The notes under the pieces: generated by a model | What the model saw: only the letters and a program-made list of their open reading frames with translations | Told to the model about the DNA's origin: nothing | Databases searched by the model: none | Made by a program: the position numbers and the translations under genes | Virus record (IMG/VR): IMGVR_UViG_3300027852_000862 | Coordinates: 1 to 22,760 of that record | Source of the DNA: a virus | Strand: one strand, 5' to 3' | Length of the DNA stretch: 22,760 nt | In this document: piece by piece, positions 1,121 through 20,235 of the stretch | How the letters are laid out: every line of letters starts with the position of its first letter | How positions within the stretch are numbered: the stretch's first letter is position 1

Positions 1121-1365
1121 TAGTCACCTTCCAGTATCTCCACACGCTTTACTAGGTCGTCAAAGCGCGCCAGGAATGCAGACGGGATCGGCTGTTTTCG
1201 GATCTCGCGCAACTCCAACTTGATCTCACCCATATCCTCTCGGATCGGGTCGAGCTCGTGGGAAACGAACCCCGCGCCTAGCGTCACTACGCCAAGAAGA
1301 AGGCCGATCTGGATGCCCGAAACGGCCGTTTTTTCGGACACGGTTTTGGTTGGCCTGTCGCTCAT
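1120..1365 (-). CDS. Small membrane protein with C-terminal coiled coil; holin or Rz-like candidate
   Basis: This 81-residue protein has a short polar N terminus, a single hydrophobic segment at about residues 18-36 (GIQIGLLLGVVTLGAGFV), and a charged heptad-like C-terminal half (residues about 42-80). A single-pass, N-in protein with a coiled-coil ectodomain resembles i-spanins (Rz) and some small holin-like proteins. It is shorter than lambda Rz (153 aa). It begins inside the stop of the 2,805-aa gene (ATGA at 1362-1365) with only a weak GGA upstream, so translation is probably coupled. Together with the next two genes it forms a three-gene membrane cassette. The exact lysis role cannot be assigned from sequence alone. 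Confidence 0.7.
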   Translation of the reverse strand: MSDRPTKTVSEKTAVSGIQIGLLLGVVTLGAGFVSHELDPIREDMGEIKLELREIRKQPIPSAFLARFDDLVKRVEILEGD

Positions 1366-4300
1366 TTGGAGTTCCGTCTGGAGAGGATTGCCGTCCAGAG
1401 CCCGATCTCCTCCAGGAGTTCGATCTTCCGGTCGGTGTCAGCGGTGTTGCCCATCTGGGTTCGGAGGTCCTGGATGTGCTCGTCGGGGGTCATCGGCCTG
1501 GTGCTGGCGGCCATGAACCCGAAGGACTTGGCCACGGCCGAGAAGGCGTCGATCTCGCCGGTGCTCCAGCCCATGAGGTTCTGGACCTGGATGGGCATCA
1601 TGCCGGCGAGCTGGGAGAGCAGGTAGCTCGGGATCTGCTTGTACTCGAGGGGGCCGCGGCGGCCGCTCCACTTCACGGTCTGGCCGCGCATCTGGCCTCC
1701 GCGCTCCATGCCGGGATAGGTGAAGGTCCCGTCGGCGCGCATCCGGCTCGCCTTGTAGAGGCCCTTGTCGTCGAACCCGGCGAGCTCGTCGAAGGACGTG
1801 AAGGGGCGGCCTGCCCAGTCGGTCCCGGTGAGGGCCTCCTGGCCGATGGCAAGGACCGGCGAGCCCTTGTGCTTGAGGCTGGTCACCGGGTGGAGCAGGA
1901 ACTTGACCGGGTCGCGGAAGTGGCCCAGGATCGAGAAGTAGTAGCGCTGGTCGCGCGAGCCCCCGAAGGCCCGGGCCATAGGCGTGATGTCCACCTCGAG
2001 GAAGCGGAGGTTGCCGGCCTTCCAGGAAGCCTTCTGCCGGGAGAGGAAGCTCCGGCCCGCGGGGTCGTCCTCCTCGTCGTCGAGCCCGGCCATGATCAGG
2101 TTGGCCAGGACGGTGAGCAGGCCGGCGCGCGCACCCACGCGCTTCCACATGTCACGGTAGGCCTGGCCCTCGCGGCCCCGGGTGAAGGCCTTGTACATGG
2201 ACCGCACGTTGGACTCGGTCCAGTCGGGCGCCAGGAGCAGGAGCCGCATGAGGTGTTGGACCTTGGGGTTGCGGCCCATGCGCTGCAGGTTCAGGCCGCC
2301 GAAGTCGTCGTTGGCCATGTTGGCCGCGATGGTCGCCAGCTCCTTGACCGAGACCCCACCGCCCTCGAGCTCGGCACGATGCTTGTGCATCAGGTGGCGC
2401 AGCTCGAGCAGGGCGGTCTGGGCCTTGAGGTAGGGTCCCAGGCGGTTGAAGAGGAAGGCGGTCTGTTGGTCCCGCGCGGCCACGACGGCGTTGCGGGCCG
2501 CGCCCACCGCGCCCATCTTGTCCAGGATCCGGCCTACAGCGGTCTTCTGCTTGAGGTGCTCGCGCTCGAGGTCCCGCCCGGCGTCGAGGGTGAGCCCCGC
2601 GCGCACCAGGAGCTCGAGCTCGGGCGTCCAGGCGTCGATGGCGGCCCGGCCGAGGCCGTAGGCCTTGCGGGGGCTCATGTCGCCCAGGCCGTCCACGATG
2701 GGCGTGCCGAAGGCGTAGGAGCGAAGGAAGGCCTGGTGGTGGAACAGGGACGTGAAGAGGATGGTGGCCTTGAGGTTCGCGTTGGCGGTGGTGAGCGCCT
2801 CCATGAAGTCACCCTCCCACATGCGGCCCGTGGCGTTGTTCAGCCCCTTGGCCAACCCCTTGGGAGCGTAGATCGTGGCGCGCCGCTCGAGGTTCCCCTC
2901 CTCGGTCACGCGCACGTCCTCCCCATAGACGGTCCCTGGCTCGGCCTTGCCGGCGTGGACCCACCGCTTGAAGCCTGGGTGGTCCAGGGCCACGTAGCCC
3001 ATGCGCTGCACGGGGGAGAAGACCTTGGCCTTGAGGCCGTAGTCCCGGAGGTGGCGGTCGTAGATCGCCTGGGCGGTCTGCCGGCGGGAGAGGTGCTGGG
3101 CGTCGATGGCCGAGGGGACGGCGAGCTCGCGGCCCTTGGCCCACCCCTCGAGGATGGAGCTGTAGCCCCTGGCCTTGAAGCGCGGGGACGTGGGGGAGAA
3201 CTTCGCGTTCCCACCAACCGGGTCGCCCTCTTCCCGCGGCTGCCAGACGCGCGCCGTGTAGTCCTCGATGGCCTGGCGGATCAGGCCGCGCTTCTCGAGC
3301 TCCTTGCCTCGAGCGTGGTTCTCGGCCCGGATGCGGTCGGCCATCTCGCGGATCGGAGCCGGCAGGCTCTGGGAGAGGTGGAAGACCTCGCGTTGCTCGC
3401 CGGAGAGCTCCTCGCGGAACATGGCGAACTCCTCGCCGGCCCGGTCGCCCAGGTCGATGTAGAGGTGCATGGCCAGGTCCATCTGCTTCATGGCGCGCAG
3501 CGGCTCGCCGGCGAAGGCCTCTCGGACCACGTCGGCCACGTCGCGCCGGCCCAGGGTCGCGCGCAACTCGCGCTCGAGGATCGCGGCTCGGCTTTGGGCC
3601 CACTCCTCGGCCACCTGGCGGTCGGCCAACCACTCATCGAAGAGCACGGCGCCGGCAGGCTCCAGGCCAGCAGCGTCGGGGTCCAGGGTGAGGAAGGCTG
3701 GGTCCTCGAAGAGGATGTCCTGTTCGGTCCGGTCGCTCGTCGGTCGCTCGTACACCGGGAAGAAGCTGGCCTGGCCCGGGTGGTTGGTCCCGGTGACCCC
3801 CATGGCCTTGCGGAAGGCCGGCGGGACATAGAAGAGGCTCCCCTGATTGCGCTTCCCGCCCATGTTGCCGTGCCACAGGTCGCGCGGGACCGCATGGCGG
3901 CCGGCCTGATTGCGGAAGTGGTCCTCGATCACCTCGAGGATGTCGCCCTTGCGGATGCTCTGCTGGGCCGTGCCGCGAGCTCGAGCGGCCAAGCTCGGCT
4001 GCAGGAACTGGATCACGTAGTAGAGGTAGTCGGGGAGCAGGACCTCTCGGTCGGTGGCGATGGCGAAGTCGCTCGGGCCCTGGCGCTCCTTGTGCGGGGT
4101 TCCGGCGTTCGGACCCACTCGCTGGACGTAGAAGTCGCCCCCACCGCTGGAGCGAACGTCGATCAGGGGCTGTTGGCCGCGGGGCACCGCGAAGAGGCCT
4201 TCGCCCGCCTCGTTGTAGAAGGTCGGCGTTCCGTGGCGCATGGACTCGATGCGCTCTTCGGCCGCGACCACGGCCTCCTCGAAGGTCTTGCCGTGCTCAT

Positions 4301-7300
4301 CCATGAGCCGGAAGGTCTCGACGGCGATCTCCTGGTCCGTCGGCACGTCGGCTAGGGACCAACCGCGCTCTTCCTGGTCGGAGTCGGGCCCGATGTCCCC
4401 CTCCAGGTCAGACCTCGAGGGGTTGCGCTCGAGGAAGTCCCTGATCGTGTCGATGGGGTTGGGGTTCTCCTCGTAGAGCCGCGCCTCCGCATCCCGAACG
4501 TCGCCGCCGGCCGCCTCGGGGAACCACCCGGCATCGAACATCGCCCGGATGAGCATGTCGGGCGCGGCGCCCTTGCCCTTCTTGGTCTGTACCGGGTGCG
4601 GGATGCCCCAGGCACCCTTGAGGACGCTCTTGTCCTCCTTGGAGCTGAACTGCGAGAGATCGCCCTGGGCGTCGTGCACACCGCCCATGGCGCGCAGCCA
4701 GACCATGAAGGGGCTCTTCGGGTCGCTGGCGAGCTTCTCGCCGCGGGCGTTGAAGGCCTTGATGGCAGCTGTGGACCTGTTCACCCGCGACTGGGCCTTG
4801 GAGGGCTTGGTCGGTGGGTCGGGATCTGGGTCGGGCTCGAGCTCGGCCGCGCGGTTCTCGGCCTTCCAGACCTCCTTGCCGATGTTGCGCCAGCGCCTCT
4901 CGGTCTCGTCCGCGTACCGGCGCTGGGCCTGGATGTCGTCCCAAGCCTCCTTGGTCGTGGTCGGGTCAGCCTCCGCGGCCTCGAGGGCCTCGGTGTAGGA
5001 GCTGTGCGCGTCCTGGCGGTCGGTCTCCGCCTCTTGTCGGAGTTCGTTGGCCCATGCGCGCAGGGCTACGGGGTCATCCCAGATCGACTCCAGGGGGTTG
5101 AGCGGAGTGACCTCTTCGGTGACCTCCTCGATGTCCTCCGCGGCCTCGGTCGCGGTTTCCACCTTGGCCGCGAACGCGCGCAGCCGGGCAATCTCCTTCT
5201 TGCCCTCGAAGGTCTGCTCGAGCTGGTTCGAGCCCGTCGATTGCAGGACCACGACGGGGACGGTGCGGGATCGGCGGTTGCCGTCGGGGGTGCTTCGGAA
5301 GTAGCTGGAGATCACCACAGAGGGGCCGAGGCCGGGGAGGTTGACCTCCCTGCCCACCGGGAACTCGCCCACGGGCTTCTCGGCCTTCTTCTTCTGCTCG
5401 ACGGCACCTTTCTTCCCGTCGAGGATTGCGAGCTTGAGGTGGACGATGGGGTTGAAGCCATTCCGGTCGGCCAGGTACTGGTCCGCGACGTTCCAAACCT
5501 CACTCATCCGCGGGAGTTGGTCATCCTCGAACCTTCCCTCGGCCAGGTCCAGAGCGGTCTCGAGGATCGCCAGGGCCGCGCGGTAGACGCGGCGGAGCCC
5601 CAGGAGCCGCTCGCCCTGCCCCGACTCCGCGAATATCTCCTTGGCTCCGGTCTCGGTCATGCCCATCTGGACGAGGAACTCGCGGGCTCGCTCCTTGCCA
5701 ATACGCTTGAGCTGGGCCGCTGACAGCACCATCAGCTTGTCCAGGGCCAGGACTTGGCTCCTTCGCTGGCCGGCGGCATCGCTAGGCCTCAAGCCCTTCC
5801 AGCCCGCGCCTCCAAACTGGCGCCGAAGGATGCCGTGGATCAGCTCGATGGTTGGCTCTACGTAGCGGTCGGCCTTGGGGTGCTTGGCGAGCTTGTCGAG
5901 CGGGATCGTGAGCCCTCCGCCCGCTGGACGGACGAGGCCGTCGTACTCCTGGTGGGGCGCCGCGTCGTCGATGCCGGGGTACTCGGACTTGATCTCGCTT
6001 CGGACCGCGTCAGCGAAGGCCTGCTGTTCGGCCGCGGCATCCTCTTCGGCCGCGGCGATCATCTCATCGCCGTCGAACATGCGCGGGGCGGCCTCGGCCT
6101 GGAACTCCGCGTCTAGCAGGCTGGTCTGGCCGCGCGCGCCGGTGTCCTCCTGGAAGAGCCCGCCCTGGGCCTGTTCGTCCTCGAGCACCTCGCGCCGGGT
6201 GCCCTTCTTCTCTTCGGTCTCCCCGAACATGTCGGGGGCCGTGCGCGGCATCTCGGCCACCGTGACCTCGGGGGCCACGATTAGGGCCTTGTCCGCGGCG
6301 TCCACGTTCGACTGGGACACAATCTCGAGCAACGCGGCCCGGTCGAGCAGCTCGTAGACGTTGACCCCCATCTCCGCGAGGGCATCGGCGTGAGCGTCGG
6401 GCCCCTCACGCCTAGTCCGAACGCCGACCTCGCCGCCCGCCCACAGGGTCAGACTGAGTGCGCCGTCTGGGCCGTCCGCCACGACCAGCCCATGGCCGCC
6501 GCCGAGGCTTCTTCCTCCGGCGATGCTGTCACGGAACAGGGCCCCCTTGGCCGCAGCCAGAAGCGCATCACGGTCTGCACCGCGGAGCCGTGTGGGAGAC
6601 TCCGGGTTGCTGGGCTCGGGGACCTTGGCGGCTCCCCACTCCTTCTCACGCTGCTCGATGGGGGCCAGGTGCACCGGCGCCTCGACCCCGGCCACCGCGT
6701 GGAACGGGTAGCCCTGGTCGTCGTAGAGCATCTGGGTCGCGCCGACCGCGCGCAGGATCTCGAGGTCCCGGGTTACGCCCCGAAGGAGCTCGCCCTCGCC
6801 AGCCTTGCCCTTCTGGGACTTCAGCTGCAGGTCCTGAAGGGTAGACCACGGAGCCTTCTTGACGCGCGCCCAGAGTCTTCCGATCCTCTTGGCCGCGGCC
6901 GTGACCACCGCCCCGTCGAAGGATCCGCCGGTCCCGTCCTTCTCGAGCTCGCGCCGCACGGCCGACTCGACAGCCTTGCGCGTGTCCGGGGCGGCCTCCT
7001 CTTCCGTCGCGGCCGGCTCCTTGGCCTTGGCGGCGCGCTCGGCGTCCTCCTCCTCGCGCTTCCTGTGGGCCCAGTCGGCGCGGGCCTGGGCAACCTCCTG
7101 GTTGCGACGGTCGAACTCCTCGCGCTCGAGTAGCTCGACGCCCCCCTCGGTGGCGAACCGGATGGCCGCATCCAGGTTCTCGAAGTCGGTGTCCTTATGG
7201 GGGTAGAACTCGGGCGGGAAGGTGCGAACGCGCCATTGGTCTCGACCCTCCTGGGTGAGACCGTTCTGGTGGAGGTGCGCGTAGCCGTCCTTGCGCTCGA

Positions 7301-9779
7301 CCAGGATCTCCGGGTCGTACTCGCTGTCGCCAGCCTCGTCGGCGTCGTACTGCTCACGCGCGCGCTTGCGGAAGCCAGCTGGCGTATCGGTCTGACTGAT
7401 TCGATCCGGGCCAGAATCGGGCTTCTGGGCCTCCTGGGCGGGTTCGAGCGCGGCACGCCAGCGGTCCATGGGGATTGGATCCAGCTCGTCCCGCGTCCCG
7501 GGCTTCTTGGCCCAGACGATGACATCGCCGGCGTCTGGCGCGTGCGGCGGCCGGCGCTCGACGTAGGCCGCGGTCCGCTCCTCGCCGTCGATGACGGCCG
7601 CACCGCCCCCGAGAACGATGGCTCCGTGGGTCTCGTAGACCCCGCCGATGTAGTCGGCGCCCTCGAGCTCCTCGTCGGAGGGCATCTCGGTAGCGGGCCG
7701 GATGTGGCTGGTGTCCATCTCGCCCGAACCGTTGGGCCCCGTCGGCCTGGCGGTCCCGAAGCCCGGCGCAAGGTCGGTATCCTCGGCGGCCTGATTGGTT
7801 CCAGGCTCCTCGGTGACCCCGGAGGGCTCGTCCGTTTGGGTGGCCACGCCCGAGGTGGACGACCCCTCTGCATCCTTACGGGGGCTTGAGGCCTCTTCTG
7901 GAGCAGGAATCTCGGATTTACCTTCCTCGGGTGCCCCGACGGGGTGCGCGGCGGCGAAGGCTGATTGGTTCCAAGCCTCGTCCGGGCCATCCCAGGGCCG
8001 ATAGAGGGGCTCGTCGGCGCCCAATTCGATGATCCGCCTGGGGCTGGCCTCGAGGAAGGCGGCGCGCAGGACCTGGAGGGTCTGGCGGATGGCGTCCGGG
8101 GTTGCGCCCATCTCCTTGAGCCGCTCGAGCTCCTTGGTGAAGGGCTGCATGGCCTCGAGGAAGGCCTGGTCCTCGGTCGTGAGGCCCTCGCCGTTCAGGA
8201 GCCGGCGGTCGGCGCGGACGAAGAGGTCGCGGATCGCGGCCACCATGCCCTTGCGCTTCACCAGGCCCCGGTCGTCCAGGGGTAGGGTGCCCTGCACCGA
8301 AGCCATGAGGGACTGAGGCATCAGCTCCGCGAGCCGGGCCCAGCCCTCCTCGGTGAGCAGCGCCAGGCGCCTCTGGGGATCAACCTCTCCCGCGAAGGGG
8401 TCCTCGCCCAGGAACTCCTGGTAGTCCGCCCTGTAGGCCTCCATGGCGCCCTCGAGCACCGCGGCGACTCCCGGGTTGGCCGCGGCAGCTCGCGCAGCCT
8501 CACGGCCCGCAGGGGTGCCTGCACCGGCAGCCCAATGGAAGAGCTCGTGGGCCGCAACCTCGTCAGCGAGCTCGGCGCCCGCGTTCCGGTCCAGGAGGAT
8601 GATCCCGTCCTTGGAGAAGGCTGTGCCGCCCAGGGGGCGGCCGGCGTCCACCAGGTGGATGTCCTCGAGGCGTGCGTCGGGGTAGCCCAGCGCGCGGGCC
8701 ACCCGGAGCAGGTTCTCGGCCGCCGGGCCGGTCGCGGAGCCCATGCCCTCCATGGAGAACTCGTCAATGCCCATCTCCCCCAACCAGACCTGGGCGATCT
8801 CGCCGGCCTCGCCACGGACGACGGGAGCATCCTGGACTAGGTCAGCGACCCACTCCAGCCCCACGCGCACCTCGGCCGCATAGGCCTTCTTCGACTTGGC
8901 CAGGGCCCGCTCCTGCAGGACCGACCCCCCACCGCCGAGGCCGGCACCGAGGACCATGCCGATGGCGGCGCCGTCCTGGGCGGCCTTGAGGATCTCGCCC
9001 CACTCCTGGTCATCGGCGTACTCGAGGAGGAAGGTGGCCACGGCCTCGGTGCCCATGGTCTGTCCGAACTCCTGGCTTCCTTCCTCGAAGCCCTCCACGG
9101 CGACCTCCTTGAGAACGCGGCGGAGACCCCCGCCGGTGCGGGAATCCAGGCGCGAGAGCATGCCGCCGACACCGATGGCCTCGGTCGAACCCCAGACCGC
9201 CCCGTTGGTCCACGCCAGCCAGAGGTCCCCTCCCTCCTTGCCAGCCTCCTCCGCGCGTCGGAACTCGGCCTCGGCGCCGCGCGCTGTACCAAGGAGCGCA
9301 CCGGAAGCGCGCCCCATGACGCCCACGCTACGAAGTGCACCGGCCCCGAAGAGGAAGGTGCTCGCGTCGCCAAGGCCCCGGGAAAGGTCCGCCACGCCGC
9401 CCATGTCCACGGTGGGCTCCCCACCGACCATCATGGACTCCGCGGGCTCGGCCAGCCCGCGAATGGAAGCGCCGGCGCGGCGGAGGAAGTTGCCATCCGG
9501 CCCCTTGTCGGTGCCCGGGATCGCCTGGACCAACTGGCCGGCGAGCTCGGGGATCGCGGCGACACCGGTGGCCAGGCCCTCGGTGAGAGGCTGGGCGAAG
9601 CCATGGTAGAGCTTGCTCACGCCCTTTTCCGTGGGGCTCATCCGGGCCCATCGCTCCTCCTTCTGGTCCCTGGAGAGGTCGGCCGGCTCGATGCCGCGGC
9701 CCTGCAGGTCCTCCCGCATGCCCTCGATCAGGGCGCGGAGCTGGTCCGGCTTCACTCCCTTGGTCGGATCGTCGGGCAT
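1362..9779 (-). CDS. Giant 2,805-aa polyvalent / virion-ejected protein with zincin-type HELFH motif
   Basis: The layout by residue is: 50-300, helical Ala/Gly-rich region including EGFEEGSQEFGQ (about 230-241) and a Gly-rich hydrophobic run (about 269-283), likely membrane-interacting. About 365-480 is a zincin-like metallopeptidase module with H411-E-L-F-H415 after a beta-strand-like GIILLD; Glu477 or Glu478 could be the third zinc ligand. About 600-700 is a Ser/Pro/Glu-rich disordered linker, and about 890-960 a charged coiled coil. D1183-MFGE, Q1205-GGLF and Q1218-TSLL are short linear motifs in a linker. About 1290-1450 is helical, and about 1540-1660 is helical ending in a DPDPDP linker. 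About 2320-2805 is a long helical C terminus with hydrophobic segments near 2330 and 2554. The start is fixed by the TGATG overlap and GGAGGG 8 bases upstream. Position after nozzle and internal-virion-like genes suggests it enters the cell with the DNA. Domain assignments are by eye, and catalysis is inferred from one motif. Confidence 0.85.
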   Translation of the reverse strand: MPDDPTKGVKPDQLRALIEGMREDLQGRGIEPADLSRDQKEERWARMSPTEKGVSKLYHGFAQPLTEGLATGVAAIPELAGQLVQAIPGTDKGPDGNFLRRAGASIRGLAEPAESMMVGGEPTVDMGGVADLSRGLGDASTFLFGAGALRSVGVMGRASGALLGTARGAEAEFRRAEEAGKEGGDLWLAWTNGAVWGSTEAIGVGGMLSRLDSRTGGGLRRVLKEVAVEGFEEGSQEFGQTMGTEAVATFLLEYADDQEWGEILKAAQDGAAIGMVLGAGLGGGGSVLQERALAKSKKAYAAEVRVGLEWVADLVQDAPVVRGEAGEIAQVWLGEMGIDEFSMEGMGSATGPAAENLLRVARALGYPDARLEDIHLVDAGRPLGGTAFSKDGIILLDRNAGAELADEVAAHELFHWAAGAGTPAGREAARAAAANPGVAAVLEGAMEAYRADYQEFLGEDPFAGEVDPQRRLALLTEEGWARLAELMPQSLMASVQGTLPLDDRGLVKRKGMVAAIRDLFVRADRRLLNGEGLTTEDQAFLEAMQPFTKELERLKEMGATPDAIRQTLQVLRAAFLEASPRRIIELGADEPLYRPWDGPDEAWNQSAFAAAHPVGAPEEGKSEIPAPEEASSPRKDAEGSSTSGVATQTDEPSGVTEEPGTNQAAEDTDLAPGFGTARPTGPNGSGEMDTSHIRPATEMPSDEELEGADYIGGVYETHGAIVLGGGAAVIDGEERTAAYVERRPPHAPDAGDVIVWAKKPGTRDELDPIPMDRWRAALEPAQEAQKPDSGPDRISQTDTPAGFRKRAREQYDADEAGDSEYDPEILVERKDGYAHLHQNGLTQEGRDQWRVRTFPPEFYPHKDTDFENLDAAIRFATEGGVELLEREEFDRRNQEVAQARADWAHRKREEEDAERAAKAKEPAATEEEAAPDTRKAVESAVRRELEKDGTGGSFDGAVVTAAAKRIGRLWARVKKAPWSTLQDLQLKSQKGKAGEGELLRGVTRDLEILRAVGATQMLYDDQGYPFHAVAGVEAPVHLAPIEQREKEWGAAKVPEPSNPESPTRLRGADRDALLAAAKGALFRDSIAGGRSLGGGHGLVVADGPDGALSLTLWAGGEVGVRTRREGPDAHADALAEMGVNVYELLDRAALLEIVSQSNVDAADKALIVAPEVTVAEMPRTAPDMFGETEEKKGTRREVLEDEQAQGGLFQEDTGARGQTSLLDAEFQAEAAPRMFDGDEMIAAAEEDAAAEQQAFADAVRSEIKSEYPGIDDAAPHQEYDGLVRPAGGGLTIPLDKLAKHPKADRYVEPTIELIHGILRRQFGGAGWKGLRPSDAAGQRRSQVLALDKLMVLSAAQLKRIGKERAREFLVQMGMTETGAKEIFAESGQGERLLGLRRVYRAALAILETALDLAEGRFEDDQLPRMSEVWNVADQYLADRNGFNPIVHLKLAILDGKKGAVEQKKKAEKPVGEFPVGREVNLPGLGPSVVISSYFRSTPDGNRRSRTVPVVVLQSTGSNQLEQTFEGKKEIARLRAFAAKVETATEAAEDIEEVTEEVTPLNPLESIWDDPVALRAWANELRQEAETDRQDAHSSYTEALEAAEADPTTTKEAWDDIQAQRRYADETERRWRNIGKEVWKAENRAAELEPDPDPDPPTKPSKAQSRVNRSTAAIKAFNARGEKLASDPKSPFMVWLRAMGGVHDAQGDLSQFSSKEDKSVLKGAWGIPHPVQTKKGKGAAPDMLIRAMFDAGWFPEAAGGDVRDAEARLYEENPNPIDTIRDFLERNPSRSDLEGDIGPDSDQEERGWSLADVPTDQEIAVETFRLMDEHGKTFEEAVVAAEERIESMRHGTPTFYNEAGEGLFAVPRGQQPLIDVRSSGGGDFYVQRVGPNAGTPHKERQGPSDFAIATDREVLLPDYLYYVIQFLQPSLAARARGTAQQSIRKGDILEVIEDHFRNQAGRHAVPRDLWHGNMGGKRNQGSLFYVPPAFRKAMGVTGTNHPGQASFFPVYERPTSDRTEQDILFEDPAFLTLDPDAAGLEPAGAVLFDEWLADRQVAEEWAQSRAAILERELRATLGRRDVADVVREAFAGEPLRAMKQMDLAMHLYIDLGDRAGEEFAMFREELSGEQREVFHLSQSLPAPIREMADRIRAENHARGKELEKRGLIRQAIEDYTARVWQPREEGDPVGGNAKFSPTSPRFKARGYSSILEGWAKGRELAVPSAIDAQHLSRRQTAQAIYDRHLRDYGLKAKVFSPVQRMGYVALDHPGFKRWVHAGKAEPGTVYGEDVRVTEEGNLERRATIYAPKGLAKGLNNATGRMWEGDFMEALTTANANLKATILFTSLFHHQAFLRSYAFGTPIVDGLGDMSPRKAYGLGRAAIDAWTPELELLVRAGLTLDAGRDLEREHLKQKTAVGRILDKMGAVGAARNAVVAARDQQTAFLFNRLGPYLKAQTALLELRHLMHKHRAELEGGGVSVKELATIAANMANDDFGGLNLQRMGRNPKVQHLMRLLLLAPDWTESNVRSMYKAFTRGREGQAYRDMWKRVGARAGLLTVLANLIMAGLDDEEDDPAGRSFLSRQKASWKAGNLRFLEVDITPMARAFGGSRDQRYYFSILGHFRDPVKFLLHPVTSLKHKGSPVLAIGQEALTGTDWAGRPFTSFDELAGFDDKGLYKASRMRADGTFTYPGMERGGQMRGQTVKWSGRRGPLEYKQIPSYLLSQLAGMMPIQVQNLMGWSTGEIDAFSAVAKSFGFMAASTRPMTPDEHIQDLRTQMGNTADTDRKIELLEEIGLWTAILSRRNSK

Positions 9780-11281
9780 CAGTAGGGCCCTCCGAGGCGA
9801 CCCTTGGCCCAGTCATCATGGACCTTGGCGGCCCGGTCGCTCTTCTCCTTGTCCTGCACGTCACCGCTATCGAGGGCCTCCAGGGCCTTCTCAAGCAGGG
9901 TGAGCAGCTGGCCCCCCAGCTCCTTCGCGCGCTTGGGATCCTCGGCCTCGAGCTCGGCGTATCGAGCCATGGCCTTCTCGCGGACCTTGTCCGGGTCCTC
10001 GAGGTCTTCCGGCGCGAGCTGCACGCCCAGGCCCTTGAAGGCGTCGAGCATCTTGCCCTGGACCGCAGCCCGGCTCTCCTCGGACCCCTTGGCGTCCTTG
10101 AAGGGCTCGGTGCCTCGGATTGAGTCCTCAGCCGTCTTGAAGCTGGGGTCGGTGCGGGTCGCCTGGTCCTCGGTCCCGACCTGCTCGGAGACCTGGGGCT
10201 CTTCGGCCGGAGCTTGGGTCTCGGCCCCCGGGGCCTGGTCGGACTGGAAGAGCATGCGGCCGCCCTCGGCGTCGTCCTGATAAAGGCTGCCAGGACCAAT
10301 GAAAGGACTGACGAAGCCGCTGTCCACCTTGATCGGGAGGCCGGCCTGGGTGAGGCGCTCCTCGAGCTCCTGGATCTGGGTGTCGAGCGCCAGGAGCTGC
10401 TGTTGCCCCTGCTCGGTCATCGCCAGCATGGGATCAAGCGAGGCCTTGGACTTGTAGAGGTCCCCGAGGACGCCGCGGAGGGTTCCACCAAGGGCTTCAA
10501 CCTCAGGGCTCGGGCGGTCCAGGATGGCGAGCGCCTTGTCGGTTCCGGCGCCGATGTCGTAGTCGGGGTCGAGGCGCGCGCGGATCTGGGCATCCTGGAG
10601 GGCGGCATTGGCCTCGTGCACGCGGCTCTGCTTCCAGGCCGGGACTGGGAGCCCGTTGGTCTGGTAGAGGGTGATGGCTTCCTGGTGCGCTTGGACGCCA
10701 CGGGTGCCGCGGTCCAGGTTCAGGTCCATGAGGCCCTGGCGACGCTGCATCTCGCGCGCTCTCCCGGCGGCGCTGATGAGCTGCTGGTGCACGGCCTTCG
10801 CCGGCGCGCCGGCCTCACGCAAGGCGTCGAGCTCGGCCAGGCCAGCCTCGTCGATGAGTCCCGCCTCGAGGGCGCCGCCCATGGCGTAGGTGAGGCCATC
10901 GTCGGCCAGCTCCTCCTCGCGCCTGGCGAGCTCGGGGGCTAGGCCCTCCTGGAAGATGGCCAGGGCCTGGGGGTCGCTGATCGTCCCCATGGTGGAGTGC
11001 ACCGAGTCCAGCCAGAGCTTGTGCTCGCGGGCGCTCTTGCGGGGCTTGCTGTAGAGCGCCGAGACCTTCTCGTTTTGGTGCGGCCCCATGAGCTTGGCAT
11101 CCATCTCCTCGGCCATAGCCATGAGGCTGGTCTTGTGGGCCTCGAAGGAGCCCGAGACCGCCTTCTGGATGTCCTCGGCCTTGGCCTGGCGGCGCTCCTC
11201 TTCGCGCTTGCGCTCGAGGCCCTCGCGGGCGCCCTCACCGAACTGCCCGCTGTTCCCGCCGTGCACGACTACGATGGCCAT
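9779..11281 (-). CDS. Helical internal virion / DNA-ejection protein candidate
   Basis: This 500-residue protein is mostly helical and highly charged. After MAIVVVHGG there is a Lys/Arg/Glu-rich helix at about residues 17-40 (EGLERKREEERRQAK). Long Ala/Glu/Leu/Gln-rich helices continue to about residue 330. A Gln/Glu/Thr/Pro-rich disordered stretch covers about 340-400, and a final helical, acidic region runs to the C terminus. No enzymatic motif is visible. Known podovirus ejection proteins (T7 gp14-16, P22 gp7/16/20) are similarly helical and lie after the nozzle or tail genes, as here. The start is 3 bases after the upstream stop and has GAGGAGG 8 bases before it. Its TGA overlaps the giant gene's ATG by one base, so the two are probably co-produced. 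Function is inferred from context and composition. Confidence 0.7.
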   Translation of the reverse strand: MAIVVVHGGNSGQFGEGAREGLERKREEERRQAKAEDIQKAVSGSFEAHKTSLMAMAEEMDAKLMGPHQNEKVSALYSKPRKSAREHKLWLDSVHSTMGTISDPQALAIFQEGLAPELARREEELADDGLTYAMGGALEAGLIDEAGLAELDALREAGAPAKAVHQQLISAAGRAREMQRRQGLMDLNLDRGTRGVQAHQEAITLYQTNGLPVPAWKQSRVHEANAALQDAQIRARLDPDYDIGAGTDKALAILDRPSPEVEALGGTLRGVLGDLYKSKASLDPMLAMTEQGQQQLLALDTQIQELEERLTQAGLPIKVDSGFVSPFIGPGSLYQDDAEGGRMLFQSDQAPGAETQAPAEEPQVSEQVGTEDQATRTDPSFKTAEDSIRGTEPFKDAKGSEESRAAVQGKMLDAFKGLGVQLAPEDLEDPDKVREKAMARYAELEAEDPKRAKELGGQLLTLLEKALEALDSGDVQDKEKSDRAAKVHDDWAKGRLGGPY

Positions 11282-11284
11282 GGT

Positions 11285-11899
11285 CTAGCCCTCCTCGCTG
11301 GCGCCGAAGTCGAGCAGGCCAGACCAATCGAGACCACCGGCGATGTCGCCGGCCAAGCCCCAGAGGCCGCCCGATCCGCTGGTGTGCTGCACGTTCCCCA
11401 GGACGCCCTTGCCGTAGTTGTCGGCCTTCCACTTGGAGAGGTTGGCCAGGGATGCGTAGCCCTGAGCCATGGACTCACCCTCCTGGGTTGCCACGTCGGC
11501 GCCCATGAGCGCGATCTTGTTCCCGTGGTCCCCCAGGGCTGCCTGGGTCGCGGCGGTGACCTGGTTCTGAGCGTTGCCGACCGCGGTGGTGTTCCCCAGG
11601 CCCTTGGCCGTGAGGTCGCTGGTGACCTGGGCGGATCCCTGGGTGCCGGCCTCAAGGATGGCCTTCTCTCCCAGCGCGCCCTGCATGCCGATGGCGTCCT
11701 TGGCCTGGTCGTACCCGGCCTTCTTCGCGTCGAGCCCCTTGAGCAGCTGGGCCCAGGCGGTGTTGAAGCTCTTGTCGTAGATGCCGCCGATCTTGTCGAT
11801 GTTGGCCTGGTTCGCGCCCTTGGCCGACGAGTCAGCCTTCGAGCCCATGAGCCCCGAGAGGGCGCTTACGCCCGCTCCGATGAGTGATCCCCAAGCCAT
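11285..11899 (-). CDS. Gly/Ala-rich ejection-protein candidate with amphipathic N terminus
   Basis: This 204-residue protein opens with a Gly-spaced hydrophobic segment (MAWGSLIGAGVSALSGLMGS), a pattern common at the N terminus of small phage internal or DNA-injection proteins. Ala/Gln/Lys-rich helices follow at about 25-160. A Gly/Trp-rich C-terminal stretch (about 168-198) contains a second hydrophobic segment, GGLWGLAGDIAGGLDW. Such ends could insert into the host envelope when the virion proteins are released. It has a clear GGAGGA site 5 bases before the ATG, inside the last codons of the preceding gene. It is the first of three consecutive genes (204, 500 and 2,805 aa) that look like an ejected protein set. 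No catalytic motif is visible, and assignment is by composition and order. Confidence 0.65.
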   Translation of the reverse strand: MAWGSLIGAGVSALSGLMGSKADSSAKGANQANIDKIGGIYDKSFNTAWAQLLKGLDAKKAGYDQAKDAIGMQGALGEKAILEAGTQGSAQVTSDLTAKGLGNTTAVGNAQNQVTAATQAALGDHGNKIALMGADVATQEGESMAQGYASLANLSKWKADNYGKGVLGNVQHTSGSGGLWGLAGDIAGGLDWSGLLDFGASEEG

Positions 11900-11900
11900 G

Positions 11901-12161
11901 TCAGTCCTCCATGATGCCGGCCGCCTGTAGGGCAGCCAATAGCGCGTTCAGTTGATGATCGCCTTCCGTGGCCGGATTAGCAATCGGATCGACCCGTGCG
12001 ACCTGGTCGAAGGTCACGCGGCCGTTCTCGTCGTAGCGCAAGGGCGGCGCGAGGTCGTCGGAAGTGGTAGAGCGCCCAGCGTTCCTCCGCTGTCGGGAGG
12101 ATCCCTCGCTGCGCGAGAGTCGCACCCGTCCGCGTGCGCCGCGTCCCTTGCCGAAGGTCAT
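11901..12161 (-). CDS. Small protein with basic N terminus, unknown function
   Basis: The protein has 86 residues. Residues 1-30 are Gly/Arg/Ser-rich and strongly basic (MTFGKGRGARGRVRLSR...), which could bind DNA or be disordered. Residues about 40-86 are more ordered: RYDENGRVTFDQVARV, then a helix ending LNALLAALQAAGIMED. A C-terminal helix of this LNALLxALxxAGIM kind occurs in small phage tail or neck-associated proteins, but I cannot name a family. The start at 12159-12161 is chosen because it overlaps the nozzle TGA as ATGA and has GGAGGG 4 bases upstream. Upstream in-frame Met codons would run far into the nozzle gene and lack this signal. Confidence 0.65.
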   Translation of the reverse strand: MTFGKGRGARGRVRLSRSEGSSRQRRNAGRSTTSDDLAPPLRYDENGRVTFDQVARVDPIANPATEGDHQLNALLAALQAAGIMED

Positions 12162-15100
12162 CTGGCCCTCCGGCGTCCGCCGCGGGAGACCGAGGCCGAG
12201 AGCTCTTCGATGGCCCACCGCTGGCCGGCCGAGACATTCCCGACCTTGATCCAGACGTAGGCTCCCCGCTGTCGGACGGAGAGGGTGTCACTCAGGCCGG
12301 GTGCGAACTCGCCACACCAGACCGGCTCCTCGGGGAGCTTAGTGCTCGAGTTGACGTAGACCTGGACCATGACCGGCGCGAGGTCGTGGGCCATGACGGC
12401 GCGCAACTTGATCAGCTTGGTCTCGAGGTCGCCGTCCGTTCGGATCGGCCCGTAGATGACCCAGGAGTCGATGGGCAGGCCGTCGTCGTCCTTGGCGTCC
12501 TTGGAGATCAGGCGGACATAGCCGTCCTGGCAGCCATGGGCCACGACGCGATCATCCGGGTCATCCCCGTCGAAGACCGCGATGGAGTAGGGCTGGTGCC
12601 CGGCGTCCACCATGGAGTCAGGCCACCAGGCCGCGGTCTTGTGGCTCCAGAAGTAGAACTCGAGGGACGCGGTCCCGCCCACCACGAAGGGGATGAGGTA
12701 GACCCGAAGGCCCATGTTCTCGTGGTCCCAGACGAGCTCGACGCGGTAGGCCGAGAGATCCATGTCGCGCAAGCGGCGCTCGATGCTCACGTCGTTCCCG
12801 CTGCGCGCGTCCGAGAGGTGCTCGGGCTGGCCGCCGGGGACCATGCGGTAGACCCCGCCCTTCGAGCCGAAGAAGTAGAGGACGCCGGAGGGGTCCTTGC
12901 ACCAGGAGCGCCCGAAGGCCATTCCCGTGATGTCGGAGACCAAGTCGAAGGCGCCGCCGGAGACCGGGTTGCTCACCAGAGCGTAGATCGAGCTGTCGCA
13001 CCCGAAGAGCAGGAGGTCGTCGTTGTAGGGGACGAGCGTGTTGATGATGTCGGGACAGAGCCCGGTGATGTCGGCGTTGTTGCCCGAGATCGCCATGAGG
13101 TCATTGGGGACCGGCGGGAAGTTGTCCCAGTCGAGGGGGTCGCCGGCGGCGCTCATGTGCCAGTTGTGCGGGTCGCCGGAGCCGCGGGCCATGACGACGC
13201 GATCCAGCCAAGTCGTGATCAGCTGGCACTTCTGGGGCATGGAGCCGGACCCGGTGGCTTCCCAGGCCTCGAGCAGGTCGGTCTTCGGGGTGTAGACCCC
13301 GTAGGTGCTCCCGTCGGTGATGTAGAGCTTCTGCTGGTGCGTGGTGCTGGCCAGGTAGGTGGCCGTGTTGGAGAAGCTCACGCCGGCAACGGAGGCCCAG
13401 CTCGCGCCGTTCCGCTTGGAGAGCGCGCCGCCGGCGATGGCCAGGTAGCGGAAGTCTCGCGGCGTGTTGGTCAAGACCGTCGCCAGGGCCGTGCGGAACT
13501 TGCGGAGCGCCTCGCTGGGGTCCGTGGTGCTGTTGTCGTCGGTCTCGAGGCCGACCGTGGCGAACTCAGCCCGCGGGAAGCCGCTCGCCGTGAAGTCGTC
13601 GGCGTCGAACTCCGGCTCGTTCTGGGGGACCGTGACGCAATAGCCGTTCTGGTAGGCGGTCACGCCGTGGTCCTCGGTCGAGAGGCGAAGGAGGTGGGTG
13701 CCGTCAGCAGCGAACACGCGCGCGCAATCGAAGAGATCGTAGTTGGTGCTGGTCGCGGTCGGTGGGATCGGCACCCACAGGTTGTCCTCCTTGTCCCGCC
13801 AGAGGCGGACAAGCTCGTCGGAGGCGAAGTTGCAGGCGTGCTCGACCCCCGTGGTGCCCGCGTGGGGGAAGCTCACGTCGGTCGAGTCCCACCAGAACTT
13901 GATCTCCAGCTCCTGATCGGAGACCCCCTGGATGCTGTCCACGTCGGTCAGCTTGGCCATGCAGACGATCCCGTCATCGTCCAGGCCGGGGCCGGCCACG
14001 TAGATCCCGCCGTCGCTGGCGAGCTCGATGCCGCCCGTGCACTTCGCCGCGGGCACGTAGGCCACGTCGTTGATGTCCACGGAGGGGCCGCCACCCACGT
14101 TCAGCCCGACCAGGGCATAGATGAGTTCGCCGGCCGGGGACTGCTTGACGAGGAGGGGGTCGGTCTCGCGCAGGTTCTTCACCGCCGCGGGACCGGACTG
14201 CAGGGCGGAACTGATCGGCAGGTCGAAGGTCAGGGAGCCGAAGGAGGGGCGCGAGTGCGTGTGAGGGAAGCTGGCCGTGTGGTCCGGGAGCACCAGGCCG
14301 ATGCCCCAGCTGTGGGCCAGGTAGCCCTCGAAGCGCTCGAGCTCGGTGGTGTTCAGGGCGCTGGCCGTCCCCACGAAGCTGGTCGTCCCATAGGCGTGGT
14401 CATCGCTGGCCCCGGACGGGGTCGGCGGCCAGGTGCCCTCGGGGTACTCGCCGGCGCCGCGGTAGTCGCTCGCATCCCCGTACATGGGGTGGGAGAGGAT
14501 CGTGGGCTCCGAGAGGTCGGCGCCGTCCTTCCGGCGCTTCACGACGATGATCTCGTACACGTCGCCCAGGAAGGGGCGCATGCTCGAGGCCGCCTCCGGC
14601 TGGAAGACATGCCCCAGGATCGTGGGGCTGGCATCGACCACGTCCGCGAGGATCCGGGCCGTGCCGACGCTGTCGTAGCCGGAGAGCTGCATAGGGTGAC
14701 TCTCCCACCGGTCGATGGGGACGCCATTGACCCTCAGGAGGGACCGGGTCATGCAGTCGCGGTCCTGGGGGGTGACCTTGACCGTGTAGGTGCCGTCGGC
14801 CGGAAGGGATCCGGTGGTGAGGGTGACCGTGCTGTTGCCCTTGGCCGTGACTACGAAGGGTCCGGTGACCGTGCCCGCGGAGTCGGTCAGGGTCGCCGTG
14901 TCGCCGGTGGTCAGCCGGTAGGGGTGGAAGGCGAAGGTCGCGCCGGTGAAGACGCCGGTGCTCTGGACCAGGGTGCCCTCGGACTCGTAGTAGCTCGAGA
15001 GGCCGCCGTCGTGGATCATCGAGATCACGATGGCGTTCTCGGCCGTGCCGCTCCCGGAGCCCAGGTAGCTCCCCTCGGTGGGGAAGCCGTAGGTCCCGCT

Positions 15101-16663
15101 CCCCAGGTTCAGGTCGCTGTTGGCGTAGGCCGTGGTGCCCGTGCGGTGGAGGAAGCTGGTGTACGCTCGGACGGCGCCGGGCACGAAGTTGCCCTCCCAG
15201 TTCTCATCGGCCGAGTCGTTCCCGTAGTGGTTGAAGGTGTAGGGGTTGCTGGCCGACCGGACCTCGCTGTTGAGCGCGAGCCCGGACACGAACTCCGAGG
15301 CATAGGGGTAGGCGTAGGCGCCGTAGCCCGAGTGGCTGGCGTCGTAGTTCAGGTTGTGGCGCTGGAAGATCAGGTGGCGACGCTGCTCGGCGCCCCCGAT
15401 CTCGCCCGCATCCCCGACCTGGGGGCGGCAGACGATGAAGATGGCGTAGGCGCCGTCGGCGTAGTTGGGGATCGCGGAGAGCTGCTCGCTCGAGGTGGAG
15501 TCCTTGCCCCCGCCCGACTCGCTGATCAGGGCGGACTTCCCGTTGAAGAAGACGCCAGGCCGTCCCGCCAGGCGATTCTCGAGGACCGTGGGCTTCGATC
15601 CCTCGGGGATCTCGACATGGCCGTGCACCGCCTTCTTGGTGATTTGGAGGTCGTCGTTGACCGCGGGGCGCCAGTCGCGGCCGTGGCCCATCCGGTCACT
15701 CCAGCTGAACACGGGCTCGCCGGCGCCGTTGGCTTCGAGGGCGTCCTCCGGCATGTACCAGGACCAGATGCGGTTCTCCCAGTCCTCGAGGTCCTCGGGC
15801 GTCCAGTCCTGTAGGGGTAGCGTGGTCCCGGTCGCCTGGGGGTTGCTGTCGCGGTCCGCGTACTCCGGGTGGCCGGTGACGATGGAGCCGTCCTCCTTCA
15901 CCGCCATGCACGTGGCCGGATAGGGCGCCTTGATCACCGAGGAGGGCTTCGGCGCGATGGTCGTGAGGTTGGCGTAGGTGACGGCCAGGGCCGAGTAGGT
16001 CTTGTCGTCCTGCTCGAGGGCGATGAGGCTCTGCTGGTAGAGGCGGAGCTCGCGCACCCACCGGCCAACCGTGAGGGACCAATGGAGCTCGGGCTCGGTG
16101 TCCTTGCTGTTCGCCACCGGGATCTGGCGAATGCGGTAGATGGCGCTCTTCGATTGAAACTTCCCGGAGGCTGTCGCCGTGTAGACGTTCCCGCCGGTAT
16201 CGACCCGGACCGACCCCAGAACCATGCTGTCCGAGGGCAGGGGGATGGGGAAGGACCAAAGCAGCGCGCCGGAGGAGTTGCGCTTCTCGATCACCTTGCC
16301 GGCGACGGTGTAGGTGTTGTCCTGCTGGTCCACGTCCTGGGCGGTCGCGCCCTGCCCCGAGGCCGTGTCCTTGGCCCACTCCTCCGAGACCTTGGGCGTG
16401 CCGGAGTCCAGCTCGCCGTAGAGCTCGTCGTACTGGATCGCCTTCTGGTCGAAGGTGATCGAGGTTAGGTGGGTCACCTCTGCGCCGAGGGCCGCGGTGA
16501 TGAGCTTCTGGGTTCCCTCGCGCTGCGAGATGCGGACGCGGCCGGTAGCGGGATCCACGGACCGGGTGTTCTTCGCGTCGTGGGCGGTATCCGGGCGCTG
16601 GTCCCCCTCGCCGCGGTTCTCGTCCACGCCACGGATCGGTGCTGGGATGCGCGAGAAGTTCAT
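12158..16663 (-). CDS. Tail nozzle / tail-tubular-B-like protein with inserted LamG-like domain
   Basis: This 1,501-residue protein is beta-rich throughout. Residues about 60-300 and 810-1100 contain blade-like repeats (GGNVYTATASGKF, DGSIVTG, DGGIYVAG), suggesting a beta-propeller. Residues about 1150-1280 carry a pattern I associate with podovirus nozzle or stabilisation proteins: LDRVVMARGSGDPHNWH, AGDPLDWDNFPP, DDLLLFGCDSSIYAL and GRSWCKDPSGVLYFFGSKGG. Between about 320 and 800 lies a segment with hallmarks of phage LamG/concanavalin-like domains: VFSWSDRMGHGRDW, PGVFFNGKSALI, YEIIVVKR and ELERFEGYLAHSWG. Inside that segment is a short Thr/Val-rich beta module at about 578-632. T7 gp12 is 794 aa, so the extra length is largely this insertion. 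The start overlaps the previous stop (ATGA at 16660-16663) and no Shine-Dalgarno is seen, so it is probably coupled. The nozzle call is fairly firm; carbohydrate binding is inferred. Confidence 0.8.
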   Translation of the reverse strand: MNFSRIPAPIRGVDENRGEGDQRPDTAHDAKNTRSVDPATGRVRISQREGTQKLITAALGAEVTHLTSITFDQKAIQYDELYGELDSGTPKVSEEWAKDTASGQGATAQDVDQQDNTYTVAGKVIEKRNSSGALLWSFPIPLPSDSMVLGSVRVDTGGNVYTATASGKFQSKSAIYRIRQIPVANSKDTEPELHWSLTVGRWVRELRLYQQSLIALEQDDKTYSALAVTYANLTTIAPKPSSVIKAPYPATCMAVKEDGSIVTGHPEYADRDSNPQATGTTLPLQDWTPEDLEDWENRIWSWYMPEDALEANGAGEPVFSWSDRMGHGRDWRPAVNDDLQITKKAVHGHVEIPEGSKPTVLENRLAGRPGVFFNGKSALISESGGGKDSTSSEQLSAIPNYADGAYAIFIVCRPQVGDAGEIGGAEQRRHLIFQRHNLNYDASHSGYGAYAYPYASEFVSGLALNSEVRSASNPYTFNHYGNDSADENWEGNFVPGAVRAYTSFLHRTGTTAYANSDLNLGSGTYGFPTEGSYLGSGSGTAENAIVISMIHDGGLSSYYESEGTLVQSTGVFTGATFAFHPYRLTTGDTATLTDSAGTVTGPFVVTAKGNSTVTLTTGSLPADGTYTVKVTPQDRDCMTRSLLRVNGVPIDRWESHPMQLSGYDSVGTARILADVVDASPTILGHVFQPEAASSMRPFLGDVYEIIVVKRRKDGADLSEPTILSHPMYGDASDYRGAGEYPEGTWPPTPSGASDDHAYGTTSFVGTASALNTTELERFEGYLAHSWGIGLVLPDHTASFPHTHSRPSFGSLTFDLPISSALQSGPAAVKNLRETDPLLVKQSPAGELIYALVGLNVGGGPSVDINDVAYVPAAKCTGGIELASDGGIYVAGPGLDDDGIVCMAKLTDVDSIQGVSDQELEIKFWWDSTDVSFPHAGTTGVEHACNFASDELVRLWRDKEDNLWVPIPPTATSTNYDLFDCARVFAADGTHLLRLSTEDHGVTAYQNGYCVTVPQNEPEFDADDFTASGFPRAEFATVGLETDDNSTTDPSEALRKFRTALATVLTNTPRDFRYLAIAGGALSKRNGASWASVAGVSFSNTATYLASTTHQQKLYITDGSTYGVYTPKTDLLEAWEATGSGSMPQKCQLITTWLDRVVMARGSGDPHNWHMSAAGDPLDWDNFPPVPNDLMAISGNNADITGLCPDIINTLVPYNDDLLLFGCDSSIYALVSNPVSGGAFDLVSDITGMAFGRSWCKDPSGVLYFFGSKGGVYRMVPGGQPEHLSDARSGNDVSIERRLRDMDLSAYRVELVWDHENMGLRVYLIPFVVGGTASLEFYFWSHKTAAWWPDSMVDAGHQPYSIAVFDGDDPDDRVVAHGCQDGYVRLISKDAKDDDGLPIDSWVIYGPIRTDGDLETKLIKLRAVMAHDLAPVMVQVYVNSSTKLPEEPVWCGEFAPGLSDTLSVRQRGAYVWIKVGNVSAGQRWAIEELSASVSRGGRRRAR

Positions 16664-17052
16664 CGGAGGGTGCGGAAGAGCATCGTGGGCTTGAGCGACA
16701 GGGAGGAGACCTCGAGGGAGGGGAGGCCGTTGATCAGCATGGGGCCGGCGCCCTGCAGGAGGTCGATAGGCCCGCGCTCGCCGGTGGCGGCCAGGGTCAC
16801 GTCGAGCTGGACGTGGGCGTTGCCGTCCCGGAGGATGACCTGGCCGGAGGCCACCGGGGACACGATGATCGCATCCACGAGGAAGGCGCTCGAGCGAGTG
16901 AAGAGCACGCTGTTCTCCGCCGCCTGCCCGCACCGGCCGTCAGGCTGGTAGGGGAAGTAGGGCGTGCCGGTAGCGAAGGCGACGCTGTCGTCGTCGCTCC
17001 CGCTCGACGGCACGTGCATCTTGTGAGTGCCCAGCTCCGGCTCAACGATCAT
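16660..17052 (-). CDS. Small beta-rich virion protein candidate, unknown function (130 aa)
   Basis: This 130-residue protein is rich in alternating hydrophobic and polar residues, as in a small beta-sandwich (AFLVDAIIVSP, SGQVILRDGNAHVQLDVTL, LEVSSLSLKPTMLF). No enzymatic motif or membrane segment is visible. The ATG at 17050-17052 overlaps the upstream TGA (ATGA), which fixes the start; longer in-frame starts would run deep into the previous gene. Its own stop overlaps the nozzle start in the same way. It lies between the adaptor and the nozzle, together with another beta-rich small protein, so a neck, tail or fibre role is likely. No family is recognised. Confidence 0.65.
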   Translation of the reverse strand: MIVEPELGTHKMHVPSSGSDDDSVAFATGTPYFPYQPDGRCGQAAENSVLFTRSSAFLVDAIIVSPVASGQVILRDGNAHVQLDVTLAATGERGPIDLLQGAGPMLINGLPSLEVSSLSLKPTMLFRTLR

Positions 17053-17459
17053 CCGGCGTTGCCACCCAGGCGGATGATGCGGTAGTAGATCCGGTAGGCT
17101 GCAACCGCGCCGCTGGACAGGGTGTTGAAGCCGCCACGGAAGACCTTGCCGACCTCCTGCATGCGGTCGGTCGTGGTGCTCACGCCGGGCATGTAGGGCG
17201 TCTTGAAGTCCATGGCCATGGAGCCGGTCAGGGCCGTCACGGTGACAGTCTCGGCCGCGGCTGCGGCGGTCGGGCCGGCAAGCCACTCGATGGCCTCGAT
17301 GAGCACGTCGTGGCCGTTGGGCAGGCCGCCGGCGGTGGCCAGGGTGCGCCAATGGGCGTCACCGACCACTCCGGTCGCGTCGCCGTCGCCGGTCTCCGGG
17401 TACTGGGCGCCGGTGCCTCCGAAGTCGCCATGGAAGCGGCCAATCTGGGGATACATCAT
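17049..17459 (-). CDS. Small beta-rich virion protein candidate, unknown function (136 aa)
   Basis: This 136-residue protein has a Gly/Asp/Thr-rich N terminus. It continues with alternating strands (DVLIEAIEWLAG, AETVTVTALTGSMAMDF) and ends with GAVAAYRIYYRIIRLGG. Its ATG lies in an ATGA overlap with the stop of the 325-aa adaptor gene (17456-17459) and there is no clear Shine-Dalgarno, so translation probably depends on the adaptor. It may share a general fold with the next 130-aa protein, since both have a 'V/LxEA/DAI' strand followed by a Thr/Val-rich strand. That resemblance is weak and by eye. A structural role at the head-tail junction or in a fibre is inferred from position. Confidence 0.65.
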   Translation of the reverse strand: MMYPQIGRFHGDFGGTGAQYPETGDGDATGVVGDAHWRTLATAGGLPNGHDVLIEAIEWLAGPTAAAAAETVTVTALTGSMAMDFKTPYMPGVSTTTDRMQEVGKVFRGGFNTLSSGAVAAYRIYYRIIRLGGNAG

Positions 17460-18433: not shown

Positions 18434-18444
18434 GCGGACCTCCT
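18431..18444 (-). promoter_or_regulatory. Strong ribosome binding site deciding the adaptor start
   Basis: AGGAGG (18439-18444 on the minus strand) lies 5 bases before the ATG at 18431-18433. It re-initiates translation after the gap that follows the decoration gene. Confidence 0.75.
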
Positions 18445-18460
18445 AGTTGGATGGGGTGCC

Positions 18461-18495
18461 CCCCCCGGGCTGGCAACATGAAGCGGCCCAGGGGG
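18461..18495. terminator. GC-rich hairpin between decoration and adaptor genes
   Basis: Arms at 18461-18470 and 18486-18495 pair over 9 of 10 positions (one C-A mismatch), almost all G-C, around a 15-base loop. It sits in one of only two gaps above 20 bases in the minus-strand operon. There is no T-run on either side, so a classic intrinsic terminator is not supported. A leaky terminator, an RNA processing site, or a structure protecting the 3' end of capsid mRNA are all possible. Confidence 0.45.
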
Positions 18496-18505
18496 AGCGG
18501 GGGGA

Positions 18506-18952: not shown

Positions 18953-18967
18953 GTGGGGTTCCTCCTA
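18950..18967 (-). promoter_or_regulatory. Ribosome binding site overlapping the capsid stop codon
   Basis: On the minus strand the capsid stop TAG is the start of TAGGAGG. The AGGAGG core (18961-18966) lies 8 bases before the decoration gene ATG, so termination of capsid translation and initiation of the next gene occur at the same spot. Confidence 0.75.
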
Positions 18968-20179: not shown

Positions 20180-20235
20180 GATTCAGGTGAGGGTTCTCGG
20201 TTTGGGATCGTGGCCAACCGCGCCGTCCGCTCTCG

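Follow-up and report, generated by a model that had tools for sequence, protein, structure and literature searches.

Background

The virion RNA polymerase (vRNAP) of phage N4 is packaged in the virion and ejected, and its isolated N-terminal domain (NTD) enters membrane nanodiscs (PMC12633501). This domain has been proposed to serve, with the gp51 tunnel, as the inner-membrane anchor of the ejected protein (PMC12633501). In polyvalent proteins, zincin-type domains have been proposed to process the protein itself or to act on host proteins (Iyer et al., PMC5512222). Profile searches with the N-terminal region and the polymerase domain of N4 vRNAP recovered only related phages and prophages (Iyer et al., PMC5512222). 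As we also found no paper on a link between the N4 vRNAP N-terminal region and polyvalent giants, the connection reported here may be undescribed.

Results

Gene integrity and neighbourhood

The stretch of DNA analysed here (the window) comprises 22,760 bases of one virus record. Over a third of it is taken up by one gene, the giant, whose 2,805 codons run uninterrupted from an ATG at 9779 to 1362 on the minus strand (Table 1). An SD site (GGAGG) lies about 8 nt 5' of this ATG. The giant overlaps both of its neighbours, with its start lying over the stop of the upstream gene and its stop over the start of the following one. Codon-position GC was even over the whole gene (GC3 0.80-0.97, GC2 0.41-0.56), indicating one single coding frame. 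Origin of the giant as a frameshift chimera was ruled out by this uniformity.

As a single-sequence query, the whole giant had no match in Pfam, PHROGs, PDB, named phages, IMG/VR or plasmids, and no Pfam domain was recognised in it. The initial annotation had called this gene at the same place and length and had described it as poor in recognisable enzymatic modules; the gene proved intact by codon-position GC. The LPD38 model (PF18857) did not match at E-values up to 5. No single-subunit RNA polymerase domain was matched in Pfam, PHROGs or PDB sequences and, judged on its sequence, the giant does not count as a vRNAP. Three regions were set by homology, namely the N-module, a cargo region with a probable zincin, and the C-module; a second enzymatic domain was not recognised.

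The genes of the structural block all lie on the minus strand, in the order portal fragment, scaffold-like, major-capsid-like, adaptor-like and nozzle-like genes, genes of 105, 204 and 500 aa, the giant, and three small genes. Labels on the capsid side were given by order and appearance, the exception being the nozzle, which has homologues at the same place in many relatives. The run from nozzle to giant follows the order of T7 genes 12-13-14-15-16, and its order and size also fit N4 gp52-gp51-gp50. The giant had been said to follow nozzle and ejection genes, and nozzle-, gp14- and gp15-like genes do precede it. In relatives with enough flanking sequence, the usual order is the nozzle, a gene of about 180-300 aa, one of about 300-800 aa and then the giant. 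The positional counterpart of the 204-aa gene in locus L129 (L-numbers denote relative loci or contigs) matched a virion structural PHROG, and no sequence homologue of the 500-aa gp15-like gene was detected.

Several further features of the window were recorded. The nozzle-like protein contains an insert of about 400 residues (aa ~206-611), a candidate receptor-binding insertion, which is also present in L089, L117 and L097 and is missing from other nozzles of about 1,000 aa, including those of L029, L033 and L012. The three small genes past the giant (171-1365) encode, respectively, a hydrophobic N-terminal segment with a coil, a hydrophobic N terminus, and a lipobox (LVSC), and may form a lysis or spanin-like set. 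Over 9,651 bases (13110-22760) the window shows 100% identity to the IMG/VR contig L002 (11,981 bp). A second record, IMGVR_UViG_3300027852_000169 (L074, 23,582 bp), overlaps the portal end of L002 by 136 bases at 99.3% identity and is probably the rest of the same phage genome.

Table 1. Features of the giant and of the genes preceding it, in window coordinates
Feature	Position	Strand	Basis
Giant gene, 2,805 aa, candidate ejected polyvalent protein	1362..9779	-	ORF and translation
N-module, aa 1-296, homologous to the N4-type vRNAP N-terminal domain and the Ruegeria phage 45A6 giant	8892..9779	-	profile comparisons
Hydrophobic glycine-zipper-like segment, aa 270-288, candidate membrane-inserting helix	8916..8972	-	hydropathy
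Variable cargo region, aa 297-2039	3663..8891	-	no alignable relative except two short pieces common to L116
Probable zincin metallopeptidase domain, about aa 340-530	8190..8762	-	profile match and L108 alignment
HELFH zinc-binding motif, aa 411-415	8535..8549	-	sequence; HExxH enriched in family
EEGWA, aa 477-481, candidate third zinc ligand (Glu)	8337..8351	-	EE[GS]x[AS] recurring after HExxH
Disordered linker, about aa 597-700	7680..7991	-	composition only
Cargo segment aa 1160-1252, 43% identical to L116	6024..6302	-	alignment
Cargo segment aa 1638-1874, 29% identical to L116	4158..4868	-	alignment; GGV...AGWF pattern within
C-module, aa about 2040-2770, predicted fold like large polyvalent phage proteins	1470..3662	-	family conservation and predicted fold
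Nozzle-like tail gene	12158..16594 (start assumed at ATG 16594)	-	homologous large gene at same place in L089, L117, L097, L029 and others
105-aa gene, place of T7 gp13	11901..12218	-	position
204-aa Gly-rich gene, place of T7 gp14 / N4 gp52	11285..11899	-	position; L089 counterpart weak match, E 0.02
500-aa gene, place of T7 gp15 / N4 gp51 (periplasmic tunnel)	9779..11281	-	position only

Relatives of the giant

Relatives, which are mostly metagenomic fragments, were reached first via the portal gene and then via an alignment of the C-module. With the portal fragment as query, 77 IMG/VR contigs were hit, the majority at about 25-37% identity. When the giant was compared with 40 whole portal-matched records, four had matches, which fell in residues ~2041-2766 and 35-278. 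The C-module alignment as query recovered 17 viral loci and a further 18 in contigs of bacterial MAGs; when the zincin segment was used instead, no viral contig yielded a relative.

Outside viral contigs, L117 and L119, both Planctomycetota (Phycisphaerae) bins, are among those with the nearest C-modules. The window phage may therefore infect this phylum, but only 3 of 294 Planctomycetota genomes had a match, two of the three being small fragments. Two loci differ in gene structure. In L088 (IMGVR_UViG_3300007512_000119, 4736-14269) the giant is present as two ORFs of 2,438 and 723 aa. L130, in the 5.35-Mb chromosome of a member of the Anaerolineales (CP070811.1), holds a copy of the C-module that is about 650 aa long and contains a TGA in frame, possibly a decayed prophage.

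The N-module and N4 virion RNA polymerase

The N-module was also found in L089, L117, L098, L097 and the 3,912-aa giant of Ruegeria phage 45A6. The L089 protein (1,844 aa) combines it with LPD38 (2e-30) and an HEVGH of its own. An iterated N-module profile run over thousands of ORFs recovered only giants, plus N4 vRNAP at an E-value of 3.6e-4; the first ORF that was not a giant scored an E-value of 1.4. Local shuffling of the N4 N-terminus, repeated 1,000 times, never gave a score as high as that of the real N4 vRNAP.

The N-module was compared by HHalign with an independent 15-row Schitoviridae vRNAP profile, made from the N4 NTD and 14 other Schitoviridae vRNAPs. The match (96.7%, E 4e-10 for one comparison) pairs residues 156-282 of the giant with about 310-436 of N4, and the controls (six column-shuffled, one reversed and two other segments of the N4 NTD) were null. 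These profile comparisons establish homology between the N-module and the N-terminal domain of N4-type vRNAPs. T7 gp16 scored below zero bits against both the N- and the C-module profiles.

The N terminus had been described as Gly-rich and membrane-like. It is indeed rich in Gly and Ala, and it has one hydrophobic, glycine-zipper-like segment near the module end with a moderate Kyte-Doolittle value (1.45), not a strong classical transmembrane helix. A comparable segment occurs at the end of the module in L089, L098, L117 and 45A6.

The C-module

Altogether, 32 giants or fragments contain a recognisable C-module. In the members scanned, the only Pfam or PHROG matches over it were below threshold or overlapped it in part, and tblastn queries from five phages, one of them the window, gave no hit to the C-module among 50,697 named phage records. 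The family is not named in current databases. An AlphaFold model from 17 rows (pLDDT 73, pTM 0.65) was nearly all helical, in keeping with the long helical C terminus predicted earlier.

Foldseek searches of the model against viral models gave 36 matches at E-values up to 0.001. Top-ranked were proteins whose names refer to large polyvalent protein domains (5.8e-15, TM 0.54), and others were named for ART-PolyVal, RelA/SpoT or Zeta toxin. One match came from Escherichia phage PTXU04, which is congeneric with Pondi, and the giant of Pondi can be aligned with the L089 protein that bears LPD38. Profile-profile comparison found no link of the C-module to LPD38-type C-termini or to the N4 C-terminal domain (CTD), and VIA-align against PDB matched only the last long helix, with no informative solved relative. 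The tie to polyvalent proteins of the LPD38 type is thus one of predicted fold.

The cargo region

The giant and L096 are 48% identical in the C-module and alignable nowhere else; with L116, 52% identity in the C-module is accompanied by two cargo pieces, which lie about 385 residues apart in the giant and adjacent in L116. A pattern of the GGV/GGI...AGWF type, perhaps a small recurring payload domain, was observed in the giant (aa 1696-1800, window 4380-4694), in L116 (157-256) and in L117 (551-615). Linkers and coiled coils had been read from the sequence; by composition, aa 601-750 is consistent with a disordered linker, as 15% of its residues are hydrophobic and Pro and Gly are abundant.

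Wherever both modules were found, the order N-module, cargo, C-module was kept, and the distance between the modules ranged from 65 aa (L098) to 1,781 aa (the window). The smallest family members (about 1,090-1,130 aa) contain little besides the two modules. Known domains occupy the cargo place in other members: ART-PolyVal in L096 (1.1e-14) and weakly in L104, inorganic pyrophosphatase (InPase) and MuF_C in L129, an Eco57I methylase and an SNF2-type helicase in L133, and PBECR2 in L123. L100 has a DarB-like similarity that partly overlaps the C-module. From these comparisons, the exchangeable stretch between the modules looks like payload.

A probable zincin around HELFH

The HELFH motif lies exactly where the initial annotation placed it, and the helix motif is followed by a downstream Glu in EEGWA, both at the level of sequence motifs (residues 411-415 and 477-481). 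By chance, HExxH would appear in about 6% of shuffles of the giant. For HExxH followed within 20-90 residues by EE[GS]x[AS], a motif picked after inspecting relatives, p was about 0.001. HExxH was present in 14 of 36 giants or fragments, a set with two pairs of near copies and some fragmentary entries, compared with 1.2 expected from shuffles. Both motifs together occurred in 6 of 40 family entries (0.01 expected, for a motif chosen post hoc).

Residues 347-527 aligned with L108 656-832 (z 4.4) with HExxH and EE[GS]x[AS] in register, and the zincin segment aligned with L106 at z 3.8; most other pairs were not significant. A metallopeptidase profile from eight Schitoviridae vRNAPs found its best place in the giant at ~383-454 (score 32.6), with an E-value of 3.5e-4 that is per comparison and the best of 43 windows tried. 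Windows without HELFH scored at most 19.6, and one holding it near its end scored 24.5. When the segment was combined with L106 and L108, the three-row alignment scored 24.4 against the N4 metallopeptidase profile, below the 32.6 of the giant alone, and the motif was out of register; the evidence for a zincin is therefore not fully consistent. The AlphaFold model of the region, from ten divergent rows, had a pLDDT of 43, too low to show whether the fold is that of a zincin. On the motif statistics and the N4 metallopeptidase profile, a zincin around HELFH is likely.

Mapped on the C-module tree, HExxH switches between presence and absence nine times, with clustering no stronger than that of shuffled labels. 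This is consistent with repeated gain and loss of the motif, to which truncated entries are uninformative as regards absence.

Discussion

The giant is probably the last and largest internal (ejection) protein of a short-tailed phage, a carrier in which an N- and a C-module enclose an exchangeable payload. Its earlier description as a polyvalent protein in an ejected-protein block gains from the N4 vRNAP NTD homology, the C-module fold, the polyvalent domains of relatives and the T7-like gene order. The strongest new support for an ejected polyvalent protein is the homology of the N-module to N4 vRNAP. Homology to the polyvalent network was found in the C-module fold match (5.8e-15) and in the domains of C-module homologues. 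From homology and gene position we infer that the giant is present in virions, and the N4 vRNAP NTD homology and gene order support its likely delivery into the host with the phage DNA.

In the course we propose, the giant would be stored in the capsid and would leave it after the gp14-like and gp15-like proteins had formed a channel. As in the model put forward for N4 vRNAP, the N-module would dock at the inner membrane, with the payload and C-module reaching the cytoplasm. There, the putative zincin would most likely free payload domains by cutting the polypeptide, a role that we rate at about even chances, or it would cut a host protein, a role that we think rather unlikely. More tentatively, the N-module may be a general docking and membrane module of ejected giants, common to N4 virion RNA polymerases and polyvalent carriers, which, with a C-terminal module, makes a natural carrier for swapped payloads, the members of about 1,090 aa being nearly empty.

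The giant occupies the position of T7 gene 16. The members of about 1,090-1,130 aa are little more than N- and C-modules, so the core function may be structural. On such a reading the protein would have a structural role alone, as an ejection protein like T7 gp16 whose whole chain forms an inner-membrane channel, with HExxH incidental or a dead remnant. We consider this unlikely, as neither module is linked by sequence to T7 gp16, the middle differs in length and content and in relatives holds known effector-type domains, and HExxH is strongly over-represented in the family.

The probable zincin immediately follows the putative membrane module. Among the giants of similar fold in the viral structure library, one takes its name from a lysozyme-like domain (LT_GEWL), and one relative has a weak peptidoglycan-binding match (E 0.0055, below the cutoff). 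An enzyme that opens the wall or envelope for DNA entry, replacing the T7 gp16 transglycosylase, would account for these features in place of a cytoplasmic processing or effector protease. The detectable similarity is instead to the N4 vRNAP metallopeptidase and not to a known peptidoglycan hydrolase, and the N4 ejection proteins are reported not to appear to harbour wall-degrading activity, which makes this role improbable. We found no paper reporting these proteins in virions, but synthesis after infection as a late or accessory factor, and not as a virion component, is very improbable given the translational coupling to ejection-type genes, the same gene place in informative relatives and an N-module common to the packaged N4 vRNAP.

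For an ejected carrier, the shared N-terminal domain joins two classes that have been handled separately, the N4 virion RNA polymerase and the polyvalent giants, and suggests a common docking and delivery route for very large proteins of short-tailed phages. The module boundaries of the giant are now defined and testable. The C-module family occurs in viral contigs and in bins of Planctomycetota, Nitrospirota, Thermodesulfobacteriota and other under-studied groups, and its payload regions may supply anti-host domains that are as yet uncharacterised.

Comparison with known systems

The giant shares with T7 gp16 its place after nozzle, gp13-, gp14- and gp15-type genes and differs from it in that neither module has a detectable sequence relation and no transglycosylase was found. 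The likeness to N4 gp50, the Schitoviridae vRNAP, is closer: each is a giant last gene after two smaller ejection genes, with a homologous N-terminal domain, an HExxH metallopeptidase (probable in the window giant) and a membrane-associated N terminus (putative in the window giant). Unlike N4 gp50, the window giant has no polymerase domain that we could find, its C-module has no sequence-profile relation to the N4 CTD, and its probable metallopeptidase lies near the N terminus, whereas that of N4 lies in the CTD.

The giant of Ruegeria phage 45A6 (ANH49087.1, 3,912 aa) has the same N-module (E 5.7e-24) and gene position, but the C-module was not detected in it. The giants of Vibrio phage 1.183.O, Thalassomonas phage BA3, Escherichia phage Pondi and L089 also occupy this position; the N-module is shared strongly by L089 and weakly by the other three, and three of the four carry the zincin motif. 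They differ in an LPD38-type C-terminal region (shown for L089) that has no sequence-profile link to the C-module of the window. Compared with the polyvalent proteins of Iyer et al. 2017 (PMC5512222), the window giant is without a recognisable Pfam domain and its C-module family is without a Pfam or PHROG model, but it resembles them in its giant, apparently multidomain architecture, probable zincin and predicted C-module fold, and its C-module relatives carry ART-PolyVal, InPase, PBECR2, MuF_C and SNF2/methylase domains.
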